Shown here: piece by piece, positions 1-10,367 of the stretch
Layout of the letters: every line of letters begins with the position of its first letter
Numbering within the stretch: the stretch's first letter is position 1
Virus record (IMG/VR): IMGVR_UViG_3300027754_000462
Span: 1-22,912 of that record
Source of the DNA: a virus
Direction: 5' to 3' (one strand)
Length of the DNA stretch: 22,912 nt
The notes under the pieces: generated by a model
Seen by the model: the letters and a program-made list of their open reading frames with translations, nothing else
What the model was told of the DNA's origin: nothing
Databases searched by the model: none
Position numbers and translations under genes: made by a program

Positions 1-250
1 CTAAGATTTCTTGAGATCTAGCTTTCTTACTTTCAGGAAGAATAGCATCACTCTTCCGTTTCTTAATGATTTTATTCTTTTTGTATTCGATGGGTTCTAA
101 CCCTTGAGCTATTCGTTCTTTATTCAAACGAACTAGAGCTGGTCGTCCAGCACCTGGTCTTCTACCACCCCTCTTTTCTTTTGGGGTAGCCTCTGCTTGT
201 GGTTCTGCAAGAATCACTTCAACATCAACTGGTTTAAACTCTTCGGTCAT
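1..250 (-). CDS. Basic, probably DNA-binding protein, N-terminal part (possible terminase small subunit)
   Basis: A leftward frame starts at the ATG at 250-248 and stays open to the left edge, giving 83 codons and no stop, so only the N-terminus is seen. The first residues are acidic (MTEEFKPVDVEV). From about residue 26 the chain becomes strongly basic, with an Arg/Gly/Pro patch (KRGGRRPGAGRP) like the AT-hook-like patches found near the N-terminus of many phage terminase small subunits and other DNA-binding proteins. A Lys/Arg-rich stretch follows. An AAGGG-type ribosome site lies just upstream, and a consensus leftward promoter sits at 291-319. Codons 4-7 contain one of the GTTTAAAC palindromes. 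The terminase reading rests only on this patch and on the leftward orientation, which matches the structural genes. Another nucleic-acid-binding protein is equally possible. Confidence 0.6.
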   Translation of the reverse strand, partial: MTEEFKPVDVEVILAEPQAEATPKEKRGGRRPGAGRPALVRLNKERIAQGLEPIEYKKNKIIKKRKSDAILPESKKARSQEIL

Positions 251-614: not shown

Positions 615-689
615 CTATCGATTCATTACATACATTGTCACTTCGAAACCGAAGCGTAACTCGGTGACGCTAGGTTGAGTCCATTTCAT
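615..689 (-). CDS. pqqA: PqqA-like PQQ precursor peptide (24 aa)
   Basis: This small leftward gene reads ATG at 689-687 to TAG at 617-615. Its C-terminal 15 residues are ELRFGFEVTMYVMNR, preceded by Trp3 and Pro6. This is the layout of bacterial PqqA peptides (short, W near the N-terminus, then xLRxGFEVTxYxxNR). Glu16 and Tyr20 sit in the E-x-x-x-Y spacing that the radical SAM enzyme PqqE cross-links, with PqqD as chaperone, to begin pyrroloquinoline quinone synthesis. A strong ribosome site (AAAGGAG, 6 bases before ATG), its own -10 box, a leader inverted repeat and a terminator 18 bases after the stop indicate a real, separately controlled gene. No pqqB, C, D or E is in the window, so host enzymes would have to process it. 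PQQ serves methanol, glucose and other quinoprotein dehydrogenases. The family match is by eye. The physiological role, and whether it is a substrate or a competing decoy, are inference. Confidence 0.85.
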   Translation of the reverse strand: MKWTQPSVTELRFGFEVTMYVMNR

Positions 690-1538: not shown

Positions 1539-2102
1539 ATGAATAGAGAAACATGGCTTAATAATTTAAAAGATCAATTCTTAATTGATCATTTCAAACA
1601 ACAAGGTTATGAAATACCCCAAAATGTTAGAATGTCTTGCTCACTAACAAGCGGCAGGGGTGTTAAAAATAAGAAAATAGGCTTATGCTGGAATAATTCA
1701 ATGAGTGCTGATAACACTTATGAAATAATGATTTCACCAACAATAGCGGATTCAATTCAAGTTGCGGATATTTTGATCCATGAATTGATTCATGCAACAA
1801 TAGGCTTAAAAGAAAAACATGGTAAAAACTTTAGAAAATGTGCATTGGCGGTTGGTTTAACGGGTAAGATGACAGCAACAACAGCAACGGATTCATTAAA
1901 GCTTAAAATAGCTGAATGGGTAAAAGTGCTAGGGGTTTATCCTCATGCAATTCTAGGGGGTGAAAATTCAGGTGGTAAAAAGCAAACTACACGATTAATA
2001 AAAGTTGAATGTGAATGCGGTTATACAGTAAGAGTTTCGAGAAAATGGCTTAATGTTGCAATTCCACAATGCCCATGTTGTAACATTGAAATGACAGTGT
2101 AA
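1539..2102 (+). CDS. SprT-like zinc metalloprotease domain protein
   Basis: This 187-residue protein has the HExxH metalloprotease motif as HELIH at residues 81-85 and a further histidine in the following HGKNFRK segment (His94), the arrangement of SprT/Spartan-type domains. A C-terminal zinc ribbon follows (Cys158, Cys160, and Cys178, Cys180, Cys181). Cellular Spartan/SprT proteins cut proteins crosslinked to DNA. For phage versions the substrate is not established. An AGAGG ribosome site lies 8 bases before the ATG. It is the first gene after the strong promoter at 1463-1490 and is closed off by a terminator at 2111-2137, so it is probably an early single-gene transcript. A role in clearing host proteins from DNA or in attacking host factors is inference. 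Confidence 0.85.
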   Translation: MNRETWLNNLKDQFLIDHFKQQGYEIPQNVRMSCSLTSGRGVKNKKIGLCWNNSMSADNTYEIMISPTIADSIQVADILIHELIHATIGLKEKHGKNFRKCALAVGLTGKMTATTATDSLKLKIAEWVKVLGVYPHAILGGENSGGKKQTTRLIKVECECGYTVRVSRKWLNVAIPQCPCCNIEMTV

Positions 2103-5662: not shown

Positions 5663-6381
5663 GTCATTTTTTATACAATGAGAGATGCCCTCGATGCAGT
5701 GAGAATGGTGCTGATAAGAGTGGCAATAACCTAGCAGTTTATTCTGATACGCATAAGTATTGTTTTGCTTGTGGTTATCACGATAGAGGGGACATTGTAG
5801 AGAAATATAAAGATCGTTTAAACACAGTAGTTGAGAAGAAATCTTTTATGTCATTCAATAAGGCTCAGTTTATGGATGCTAAGGGAATGACCTACTTAAA
5901 AAAATATGGGCTAACAAATGATGAAATCAATAAAAATTATTTTTGGGATAATGATGGCTATCTTGTCTTTGATGGCGGTAGTTATCAAAATGCTAGGAAT
6001 TTCACAGGAATAGGTGCTAAATATATGACTAGGGGAGTTATTCGTAATAATGAACCCATTATGCAGAATACGCAAAATGACAGTGTAATTATTGTAGAAG
6101 ATGCAATTTCTGCTATAAAAGTTAGTAGAGTGCTACCAAGTGTTCCTATACATAACTCAATTATACCCCTAGAACTCATTTTAAGGCTCTCTAAACGCTT
6201 TAAAAAACTTTTTGTATGGCTAGACAAGGATAAAAGTTTATCGGCTCTTAAACAGGCAGGAAATGCGAAATTACTTTTTGATGAAGTAAGAACAATTTGG
6301 ACTGATCTCGACCCAAAATGTTATTCTGAAACAGAGATAAAGAAATATTTAAATGTAGTTGACATGGAGAAAGAAGTATGA
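5659..6381 (+). CDS. DNA primase (T7 gp4A primase-half type)
   Basis: The 240-residue protein starts with a zinc-binding domain, CPRC at 10-13 and CFAC at 35-38, as in T7-type primases that read the template. A TOPRIM core follows with the acidic motif IVEDAIS (Glu147, Asp148) and a second acidic motif WLDKD (Asp189, Asp191) that bind catalytic metal. It makes short RNA primers on the lagging strand. Start ATG 5659 (ATGA overlap) is chosen over an in-frame TTG at 5650. In T7, primase and helicase are one protein. Here they are two genes joined by an ATGA overlap at 6378-6381. One GTTTAAAC lies at 5816-5823. Confidence 0.9.
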   Translation: MSHFLYNERCPRCSENGADKSGNNLAVYSDTHKYCFACGYHDRGDIVEKYKDRLNTVVEKKSFMSFNKAQFMDAKGMTYLKKYGLTNDEINKNYFWDNDGYLVFDGGSYQNARNFTGIGAKYMTRGVIRNNEPIMQNTQNDSVIIVEDAISAIKVSRVLPSVPIHNSIIPLELILRLSKRFKKLFVWLDKDKSLSALKQAGNAKLLFDEVRTIWTDLDPKCYSETEIKKYLNVVDMEKEV

Positions 6382-6387
6382 TAGAAT
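6359..6387 (+). promoter_or_regulatory. Possible promoter at the primase-helicase junction
   Basis: TTGACA at 6359-6364, a 17-base spacer and TAGAAT at 6382-6387 with TGA just before it resemble the other promoters of this genome. It overlaps the end of the primase gene and the helicase start (6378), so a transcript from about 6394 would lack that ATG. It may be chance within coding sequence. Confidence 0.35.
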
Positions 6388-7598
6388 TAATTATTATTAA
6401 ATATATATTAAATAATATAATATATAATAAATATATAAATAATATTATAATAACAAATAAAGAACTTGTCAAGCTTCTTTATTGTGTTAAATCTTTACAG
6501 GAATCTTCTGATAAAGAGCAATACACCATTGACGACCTAGAACTAAAATTCTTCTCAGATTATCCATTCTTGAAAGATGTTGAAAAGGAAATCTTCAATA
6601 CAATCTTCGACAAACTTCGCACATTGGAAGTTGATGACACTCGCATTGAGGAGTATCTCGACAAACAACGATCTGCGGTTATGGCTCGGGAGGTTGCAGA
6701 GATGGCTCTCGAAGTCACAGAGGGAAGGAAAGACTTTAATGAGATTCTTGACAAAATCTCTAAGATGGAAATTGACAGACCTAACGAGGAAGAGATTACA
6801 TTCGTCACAGATGACCTAGAGGAGTTGTATGAATCTCAAGTGACTACAAAGGGACTTAGATGGCGTTTAAACTGTCTCAATCAATCTTTGGGTAGTCTTA
6901 GACAAGGGGACTTTGGTTTCTTATTTGCTAGACCTGAGACAGGGAAGACAACATTCTTAGCTAGTGAAATTACATACATGGCTACACAAGCTGAGGGAAA
7001 TATTCTTTGGTTTAATAATGAAGAGCAAGGTAAAAAAGTCATGATGAGGTGTATTCAAGCGTCATTGGGCTTATCTCTACCTGAACTCTATCGAGACTTA
7101 AAAGGGCATAAAGATAAGTTTAATAACATTACACAACATAAAATTAAACTCTTTGACCAAGCTTCCATTAACTACCGAGATGTCAATAAGATTTGTGAGA
7201 AGATTAAACCTAGTCTCATCATCTTCGACCAGATAGATAAGATTAAAGGCTTTGAGCAAGACAGGAATGATTTGATGCTAGGGTCTATTTACCAATGGGC
7301 TAGAGAACTTGCTAAAGACTATGCCCCTGTAATTGCAGTGTGCCAAGCTGACGGATCAGGTGAAGGAGTTAAGTGGCTTAACATGGGTAATGTTGCTAAT
7401 GCTAAAACATCTAAGCAATCAGAAGCAGATTGGATATTAGGCATTGGTAAGACGAATGACGAGGGCTTGGAGTATATGCGTCACTTCTGTATCTCTAAGA
7501 ACAAACTTGTAGGGGATAACGATTCAATCCCTGACATGAGGCATGGGAAATTTGATTGTGTTATTAAACCTGATATTGCAAGATATGTAGATGTGTGA
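6378..7598 (+). CDS. Replicative DNA helicase, DnaB/T7 gp4 C-terminal type
   Basis: The 406-residue product carries a RecA-like motor: Walker A around residues 184-192 (ARPETGKTT), Walker B at 281-284 (IIFD) and the downstream KTSKQSEADWILGIGK segment of hexameric helicases. The N-terminal 150 residues are helical, like the linker and loader-binding part of DnaB-type proteins. It would unwind the fork together with the adjacent primase, with which it overlaps (ATGA). The first 25 codons after the start lie in a stretch of 69 bases made only of A and T (6385-6453), giving an Ile/Asn/Tyr/Lys-only segment. The pattern MIELxxxKxIL still resembles the N-termini of related phage helicases. Confidence 0.9.
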   Translation: MIELIIIKYILNNIIYNKYINNIIITNKELVKLLYCVKSLQESSDKEQYTIDDLELKFFSDYPFLKDVEKEIFNTIFDKLRTLEVDDTRIEEYLDKQRSAVMAREVAEMALEVTEGRKDFNEILDKISKMEIDRPNEEEITFVTDDLEELYESQVTTKGLRWRLNCLNQSLGSLRQGDFGFLFARPETGKTTFLASEITYMATQAEGNILWFNNEEQGKKVMMRCIQASLGLSLPELYRDLKGHKDKFNNITQHKIKLFDQASINYRDVNKICEKIKPSLIIFDQIDKIKGFEQDRNDLMLGSIYQWARELAKDYAPVIAVCQADGSGEGVKWLNMGNVANAKTSKQSEADWILGIGKTNDEGLEYMRHFCISKNKLVGDNDSIPDMRHGKFDCVIKPDIARYVDV

Positions 7599-7610: not shown

Positions 7611-8768
7611 ATGAACACAATAATTTTAGATGTAGAAACCACCACCCATGCTAATGGGAACCCATTTTCTGAAAGGAATAAACTTTGCTATGTCGGACTT
7701 AATTATAATAATGTTTCTAGTGTATTTGACATTGAATATAGTGGAAATCCGTACAGGGAAAAACTTGACGCTATACAGAATGTGCTTGACAATGACGCTA
7801 TTCTTGTTGGCTTTAACATTAAGTTTGACTTGCATTGGATAAGAAAATATGGAATTAATTTTATGGATAGGCGTATTTGGGATTGTCAGTTGGTACATTT
7901 TATACTCACTAACCAACAGAATCCCTATCCTTCACTTAATGGTGTCGCTGAGTACTATGGTTTGGGTAGTAAGCTTGATGTTGTTGCTAATGAGTATTGG
8001 AAGAATGGGATAGACACCCCTGATGTTCCTAAAGACATTCTTGAGGATTACCTAAAGCAAGACCTACTTCTAACAGAGGCAGTGTTTAAACGGCAGTATG
8101 AAGAAGTGATGTCTCTTCCACAAGAACGACAAAGATTGATTAGCTTACACAATCAGGACTTGCTTGTTTTAGAAGAGATGGAATATAATGGAATTTTATT
8201 TGATGAGGATAGGAGCTTAGAACTTGGTGCGGAACTGGAGAAGGAAGTCGGATTATTGGACGAAGAACTGGCTAAGACTTTTAATATTAGTGGTTTTAAC
8301 TTTAATAGTAAAGATCATCTTAGTTGTCTTCTTTATGGTGGACGCATTACTATCCCCAAAAAAGAAGTTATTGGAGTTTATAAAACTGGTGAAAGAAAAG
8401 GTCAAGTCAAGGAAGGGTGGGTAGATCAATGTTATGATATGCCTAGATTAGTAGAACCATTACGAGGGAGTGAATTAAAAAAAGATGGGTATTACAGCAC
8501 AGATGAACAAACGCTTAGAAGTCTTAGGAACACAAAAGTTTCTAAAGGAATTGTTGAACTTATCCTTAAAAGGAGTGGACTTGAGAAGCGTAGAGGTACT
8601 TACTATTCAGGACTCCCTGAACTCAGAGAAAACCAAGGTTGGGCTAAAGGTGCTTTACATGGGCAACTTAACCAGTGTGTCGCTAGAACTGGTCGCCTTA
8701 GTTCCTCCAAGCCGAATCTACAAAATTTTGATGGAGAAATAAAAGAGTTATTTTACTCGAGGTATTGA
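7611..8768 (+). CDS. DNA polymerase A, N-terminal part: 3'-5' exonuclease and thumb
   Basis: The 385 residues contain the proofreading exonuclease motifs DVET (Asp7, Glu9), NIKFD (Asp73) and YLKQD (Tyr147, Asp151). The thumb and the start of the palm follow, including the conserved TGRLSSSKPNLQNF segment near residues 355-370. The chain ends at Tyr385 in ELFYSRY, just before polymerase motif A. The rest of the enzyme is encoded at 9645-10367. It therefore has the proofreading half but no polymerase active site. No ribosome site precedes ATG 7611. One GTTTAAAC lies at 8094-8101. The two halves presumably assemble, which is inference. Confidence 0.9.
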   Translation: MNTIILDVETTTHANGNPFSERNKLCYVGLNYNNVSSVFDIEYSGNPYREKLDAIQNVLDNDAILVGFNIKFDLHWIRKYGINFMDRRIWDCQLVHFILTNQQNPYPSLNGVAEYYGLGSKLDVVANEYWKNGIDTPDVPKDILEDYLKQDLLLTEAVFKRQYEEVMSLPQERQRLISLHNQDLLVLEEMEYNGILFDEDRSLELGAELEKEVGLLDEELAKTFNISGFNFNSKDHLSCLLYGGRITIPKKEVIGVYKTGERKGQVKEGWVDQCYDMPRLVEPLRGSELKKDGYYSTDEQTLRSLRNTKVSKGIVELILKRSGLEKRRGTYYSGLPELRENQGWAKGALHGQLNQCVARTGRLSSSKPNLQNFDGEIKELFYSRY

Positions 8769-9531: not shown

Positions 9532-9661
9532 AGATGAGATTGCATTAAAAGCTATGGAAGCATTAATTATTGCTGACCATGTTAGACGAGAGGACATTCC
9601 TCATGAAGCCTATCGTATTGCAGATGCTATGTTAGAGATTAGTAATGCTCATACAGGGTGA
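9524..9661 (+). CDS. Hypothetical helical protein (45 aa) overlapping polymerase part 2
   Basis: ATG 9524 follows AAAAGGAG and overlaps the previous stop; TGA 9659-9661 lies 17 bases inside the second polymerase frame. The peptide is helical (SRDEIALKAMEALIIADHVRREDI). Its last six codons read the polymerase sequence in another frame, as expected if a gene block was inserted and its end fused over polymerase DNA. Ribosomes leaving this gene could restart at the polymerase ATG at 9645. Confidence 0.6.
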   Translation: MSRDEIALKAMEALIIADHVRREDIPHEAYRIADAMLEISNAHTG

Positions 9662-10367
9662 TGCCTCTGCTCTTGAGTGGAGATGTGCTGCCTTTTTAAG
9701 TAAGGATAAAGTAGCCTATGAAGAAATATGGAATGATGTCGATCAACATACTGATAATCAAACTCGTTTTGGTTTGCCTAGTCGTCTTATTGCTAAGACA
9801 TTTGTATTTAGACTTATTTATGGAGGAAGTGCTTACTCCTACGCTAATGATCCAAACTTCGCTGAGGTAAGTAAAAGTGAGAAGTTTTGGCAAAAGATTA
9901 TTGATGAGTTCTATAGTAAGTATAAAGGTCTTCATAAGTGGCATATTAAACTTATGCAAGAAGCTACAACGACTAAAATGGTTAAACTCCCTACTGGTAG
10001 GATCTATCAATTTGAACCTGAATTAAAGAGAGGTGAGCATGTTTATCCTAGGACTACTATTCTTAATTATCCTGTGCAAGGGTTAGGAGCAGATTTAATG
10101 ACACTAGCAAGAGTATCTTTATATAACCGAATGAGGAAACTAAATTATGAAAAGGCGAGACTTGTTAATACAGTTCATGATTCCATTATTATTGATTGTG
10201 ATAATGGCTCTGTTAGTACTTTAGCTAAGACTCTGTTAAATGTATTTGAAGATGTTCCTAAGAACTTTCAGAAGATGTTTGGGACTGAGTTTGATCTCCC
10301 AATGAAGGCAGAAGTACAGGTTGGAAATAATTGGAAAGATATGGAGGTTTGGAATGATAGTTTATAA
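9645..10367 (+). CDS. DNA polymerase A, C-terminal part: palm and fingers active site
   Basis: The 240 residues begin almost at motif A (QGDASALEWR, metal ligand Asp6). They continue with the O-helix motif B (Arg47, Lys51, Phe55, Tyr59-Gly60) and end with motif C (VHDS, Asp179). The residue matching E. coli Pol I Phe762 is Phe55, the 'Phe762' class. Together with the protein at 7611-8768 this completes a family A replicative polymerase. An in-frame stop at 9633-9635 rules out a continuous frame, and only a weak AGAG site lies before ATG 9645, so translation probably depends on coupling to the 45-aa gene. Residual coding just upstream (Arg-Leu-Val before Met) looks like former polymerase sequence. 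Confidence 0.9.
   Translation: MLIQGDASALEWRCAAFLSKDKVAYEEIWNDVDQHTDNQTRFGLPSRLIAKTFVFRLIYGGSAYSYANDPNFAEVSKSEKFWQKIIDEFYSKYKGLHKWHIKLMQEATTTKMVKLPTGRIYQFEPELKRGEHVYPRTTILNYPVQGLGADLMTLARVSLYNRMRKLNYEKARLVNTVHDSIIIDCDNGSVSTLAKTLLNVFEDVPKNFQKMFGTEFDLPMKAEVQVGNNWKDMEVWNDSL

Follow-up and report, generated by a model that had tools for sequence, protein, structure and literature searches.

The window, that is, the whole stretch of DNA that was analysed, is a 22.9-kb viral fragment from IMG/VR (IMGVR_UViG_3300027754_000462, positions 1 to 22,912) which encodes a DnaB-like helicase, a split family A polymerase and a ribonucleotide reductase and carries virion-like genes on its minus strand. Between its two oppositely directed halves lies a minus-strand frame of 24 codons and a stop (615..689), translated as MKWTQPSVTELRFGFEVTMYVMNR, which was assigned to pqqA, the gene for the PQQ precursor peptide, based on family scores and on its conservation in relatives. 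The next gene on the same strand (2..250) encodes 83 aa without assigned function, has no match in PHROGs and runs off the window. On the plus strand, the replication module runs in the opposite direction; its first gene of notable size encodes a SprT-like protein (1539..2102; Pfam PF10263), and the DnaB-like helicase (6378..7598, plus strand), 51% identical to that of MEP401, served as the query for finding relatives. The family A DNA polymerase is interrupted (7611-8768 and 9645-10367), with several small frames in the approximately 0.9 kb between its two parts; such a split polymerase was also reported for MEP401/402. A long TA-rich tract (tatata...) occupies positions 464-575, directly behind the pqqA terminator.

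The identity of the frame as PqqA was shown by family scores far beyond chance. The peptide scored 43 bits against Pfam PF08042 (cut-off 21.1, E 4e-11), about twice the curated cut-off, and 40.4 bits against the NCBIfam equivalog TIGR02107 (cut-off 20), with the match spanning the entire 19-position PqqA family model. When the whole record was searched in six frames with PqqA, 615-689 was the sole place found (41 bits, E 8.5e-12), and none of 14 control genomes was matched in the same search. Glu16 and Tyr20, the pair joined by PqqE, are present with the ExxxY spacing. PHROGs, Rfam, tRNA and PDB searches, made with either the peptide or the window, gave no additional information on pqqA, for which PHROGs has no family. 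The gene stands alone and not in a pqqABCDE operon; location in such an operon is common for PqqA but does not define it. The initial annotation, which was made without database searches, had claimed a leftward pqqA of 24 codons at 615-689 with Glu16, Tyr20 and a Trp/Pro N-terminus, and all of these claims held.

The same annotation had described a ribosome site, a -10 box, a leader inverted repeat and a terminator; each of these was confirmed, and a -35 element was found in addition. Read leftward on the minus strand, the unit consists of a sigma-70-like promoter, AGGACA-17-TATAAT (784-756; 10/12 consensus), an inverted repeat just behind the -10 box which forms the 5' leader hairpin TATAGACT / AGTCTATA (754-726), the ribosome binding site AGGAG located 6 bases 5' of the ATG (700-696), the frame itself, and an intrinsic terminator of 8 pairs (596-575). 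When the unit was aligned with eleven relatives, GACA, the core of the -35 box, and TATAAT were seen again in most rows, and a purine-rich ribosome site preceded the ATG. In eight rows aligned for the leader and terminator hairpins, 92% of the cells pair, 6 of the 16 hairpin pairs were changed on both sides, 12 compensatory cells were counted, and the covariation score of both hairpins was reached by none of 500 shuffles. The rows are related to one another and were placed manually around the two hairpins, and for that reason the covariation figure is not a probability. All 8 base pairs of the terminator were kept in all eight rows, with three compensatory pairs; the leader hairpin was lost in two rows (L172 and L177). 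The predicted RNA of the whole unit had a fold z-score of -3.4, better than all 200 shuffles. In two relatives (L175 and L179) an inserted stretch follows the pqqA stop codon and the terminator is not directly behind the frame. The gene is best explained as a working phage copy of pqqA, self-contained in that it brings a promoter, a 5' hairpin, a ribosome site and a terminator; the 5' hairpin is inferred to be a probable stabiliser of the short message. The promoter and terminator of its own, a moron-like feature, were analysed only in the group of this window.

The helicase scan returned fifteen contigs at 88-96% identity. The pqqA frame was found in the same slot and orientation in all eight that cover the place; the other seven end before it, one of them just upstream of the frame. 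Among contigs at 62-68% helicase identity pqqA was present in four of nine, and among more distant records (53% or less), whose hosts are not known, in one of 21. A 35.6-kb SprT relative (G046) and a near-full Venkman-like contig of 35 kb (G121) have no pqqA, and therefore the gene is not strictly universal. Within the group of the window, synonymous divergence was 0.2-0.5 in the helicase and often 0.7-1.0 in pqqA, which falls into distinct allele classes. The slot is constant while the allele in the slot is exchanged.

The initial annotation had proposed scanning other marine phage genomes for the short frame. By tblastn on 50,697 phage records, the frame was found in Venkman, P19250A, MEP301, MEP401, MEP402 and four Melnitz isolates, with one further true match in the uncultured podovirus ctXG6705. 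All nine cultured Methylophilales phages identifiable in the collection thus carry it; the count leaves out the taxonomy-listed MEP431-434, HIM624-A, Venkman EXVC038S, MG-MtP1 and RSA-MfP1. HTVC008M, a SAR11 relative of Melnitz in the same collection, was not among the pqqA matches, and PqqA types of other bacteria used as queries found no further phage. Two contigs labelled 'Acinetobacter phage' MD-2021a (L008, CAKLQF020000010.1; L009, CAKLQH020000055.1) were rejected; their pqq operon is a bacterial one, and they appear to be pieces of bacterial chromosome mis-binned as phage. The terminases of P19250A and MEP301 have their best matches outside themselves at only 32-42% identity, in phages of other hosts, and these two phages were therefore regarded as separate lineages. 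A relative is encoded by at least 594 stretches of IMG/VR. Of 160 loci from this set, 133 have proteins in common with known methylophages or with marine phages (a few contigs being counted twice), and a single one (L315) resembles the sampled host pqqA surroundings. Together with the phage genes of the window, the complete phage genomes which also carry pqqA establish a genuine phage setting for this host-like gene. The frame is unannotated in Venkman, P19250A, MEP301, MEP401 and MEP402, and in the Melnitz and ctXG6705 deposits an antisense hypothetical protein is drawn over it (L007:2967-3062, L005:2067-2195), which is likely a wrong annotation call. That the phage of the window itself infects a methylotroph is an inference, drawn from the type of its peptide and from its kinship to MEP401.

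Phage pqqA is under purifying selection equal in strength to that on host copies. The pN/pS value was 0.118 for phage copies, which were found via neighbouring genes, vs 0.115 for host copies. In 80 loci picked by a pattern over residues 3-15 only, and hence blind to residues 16-24, all 80 encode ExxxY at 16-20 and end intact, and each has a ribosome site. Across 149 distinct phage sequences Trp3, Pro6, Phe13, Gly14, Phe15, Glu16, Thr18 and Tyr20 were invariant, although part of this set was found by a motif including some of these residues. Seven peptides, compared from the W to the end, are identical between phages and hosts. The initial annotation would have been refuted by the lack of a family score, by absence of the frame from close relatives, or by stop codons or loss of Glu16/Tyr20 in relatives. 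None of these was borne out: the score is strong, all close relatives covering the place have the frame, and no such stop or loss was seen in the relatives examined.

PqqE was found on the host side. No PqqE above the cut-off was detected in any of 50 pqqA-bearing phage records, whereas 17 of 18 host genomes encode one. The host genomes examined hold 1-12 pqqA copies each; for Methylophilaceae, 3-12 pqqA copies with single pqqBCDE genes were reported (PMC4109929). pqqA is shown to occur in methylophages of unrelated lineages and to be unaccompanied by pqqE, and the claim of a substrate-only gene relying on host PqqB-E is supported, its role remaining an inference. Most pqqA phages, including the small ones, lack any PQQ enzyme. 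In one 72-kb contig (G052, IMGVR_UViG_3300025120_009955) a methanol dehydrogenase (608 bits, TIGR03075) adjoins a formate dehydrogenase alpha subunit (885 bits, TIGR01591). This contig is methylophage-like and has DnaK, GroEL and pqqA alongside both dehydrogenases (L401:13989-18783, L484:187-1833); the Baikal phage paper (PMC7678222) makes no mention of formate dehydrogenase. A scan with this methanol dehydrogenase gave five viral contigs, three of which, all large, contain pqqA; the two without it are fragments under 18 kb. The Gp23 major-capsid family was not found in the methanol dehydrogenase contigs, and thus their T4-like nature rests on HTVC008M matches, ribonucleotide reductase and curli-like genes.

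Phage pqqA is most likely (probability about 0.8) a substrate-only auxiliary gene, which supplies host PqqD/PqqE with a single-use precursor. This role is inferred, and there are no expression, peptide or PQQ data. PqqE is known to join Glu16 and Tyr20 of PqqA held by PqqD, after which the peptide is trimmed to PQQ (PMC10906245). During infection, the phage peptide would be bound by host PqqD and its Glu16 and Tyr20 cross-linked by host PqqE, and host PqqF/G, B and C would complete the PQQ for the periplasmic methanol dehydrogenase. One PqqA is spent per PQQ while the enzymes can be reused; because of this, the precursor would be the part that runs out first when host transcription fails and the cheapest to carry. 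A phage needing host energy after host genes are silenced would gain most from supplying the consumed part. Several points speak against this role: the hosts already have spare pqqA copies, PQQ enzymes are absent from the small phages, and the PQQ bound in methanol dehydrogenase may outlast the infection. A bolder reading, which we consider somewhat more likely than not, is that pqqA comes close to being a core gene in methylophages. In this reading it is an auxiliary gene for a substrate only, kept in a fixed slot with a stabilised mini-transcript and with its allele repeatedly exchanged, which would sustain the PQQ supply across unrelated phage lineages in important aquatic methanol oxidisers.

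The initial annotation had offered a decoy as the alternative, in which the peptide ties up PqqD/PqqE and lowers PQQ, for example to stop methanol respiration or to block a second phage. Access of the phage peptide to PqqD/PqqE would be as good as that of host PqqA, and nothing in the sequence excludes titration. However, everything needed for turnover is kept, namely both cross-linked residues and the tail after them, and the seven shared peptides are the same as those of hosts. Loss of Glu16 or Tyr20 would be of advantage to a decoy, and no such loss was seen; moreover, the large pqqA-bearing phages encode a PQQ-dependent methanol dehydrogenase as well. Since all turnover features are intact and the PQQ enzyme itself comes with some phages, the decoy was judged less likely than supply, and indeed very improbable.

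It is also very unlikely that the peptide only resembles PqqA and acts elsewhere, for instance in regulation or against host defence. Functions of this kind are frequent among small phage peptides, and the PqqA function of the phage peptide is inferred without any measurement; but the score covers the whole 19-position model, conservation tracks the residues of the PqqE substrate, and only phages of PQQ-dependent methylotrophs have the gene. The gene might also be a hitch-hiker that does not benefit the phage, whether picked up at random from a host or present only because host DNA was wrongly assigned to viral contigs. Several pqqA copies, scattered over the genome, are open to such pick-up in Methylophilaceae. 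Against this stand the presence of pqqA in complete genomes of cultured phages, the clear purifying selection and structure covariation, the constant slot with an exchanged allele, and the finding that 159 of the 160 viral loci are unlike the sampled host pqqA surroundings (the exception being L315), and we regard this explanation as very unlikely too. Supply of the precursor remains the preferred reading.

Phage pqqA as such was known before. Coutinho and co-workers (2020) found it with methanol dehydrogenase in Lake Baikal phages and proposed it as an auxiliary metabolic gene (PMC7678222), and a 2026 reservoir study listed viral pqqA among phosphorus-cycling genes without detail (PMC13188868). 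What is new here is its near-universality in methylophages; neither this nor the earlier report was part of the initial annotation. The Baikal paper stated that P19250A has none of these genes, which is contradicted by the P19250A record, where the pqqA frame is present. No mention of phage pqqA was found in the papers on MEP301, MEP401/402, Melnitz and Venkman, within the open-licence literature. A gene common to every cultured methylophage tested escaped annotation; it is 23-24 codons long and has no PHROGs family. If the supply reading is true, what phages of methylotrophs bring is the raw material for a cofactor and not an enzyme, since it is this material that the pathway uses up, and phage infection would be linked to methanol oxidation in OM43 and LD28 bacteria. 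The gene also offers an easy way to recognise methylophages in metagenomes. Phage-host pairs exist (Venkman or Melnitz with H5P1; MEP401 with FZCC0133), and the medium used for H5P1 already includes 1 nM PQQ (PMC9004378).

Compared with known systems, the peptide is closest to bacterial PqqA (PF08042, TIGR02107), especially the stand-alone copies of Methylophilaceae, with which it shares its length, the Trp/Pro start, the RFGFEVTMY core, Glu16-x-x-x-Tyr20 and a location apart from pqqBCDE. Unlike these, the copy in the window belongs to a phage and has a promoter, a 5' hairpin and a terminator to itself, and the phages tested have no pqqE above the cut-off. The Lake Baikal methylophage VP_266 (PMC7678222) is likewise a viral contig encoding PqqA, together with methanol dehydrogenase, but it represents one T4-like population, whereas pqqA was found here also in P19250A and other small phages without methanol dehydrogenase. 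As in phage morons, an extra gene with its own promoter and terminator lies between phage modules; morons are usually described in prophages, whereas pqqA occurs in phages isolated by infecting cultures. The proposed role also resembles that of cyanophage psbA, in that the phage would supply the fastest-used part of the host energy machinery; however, psbA encodes a working protein, whereas pqqA encodes a substrate which is destroyed to make the cofactor.
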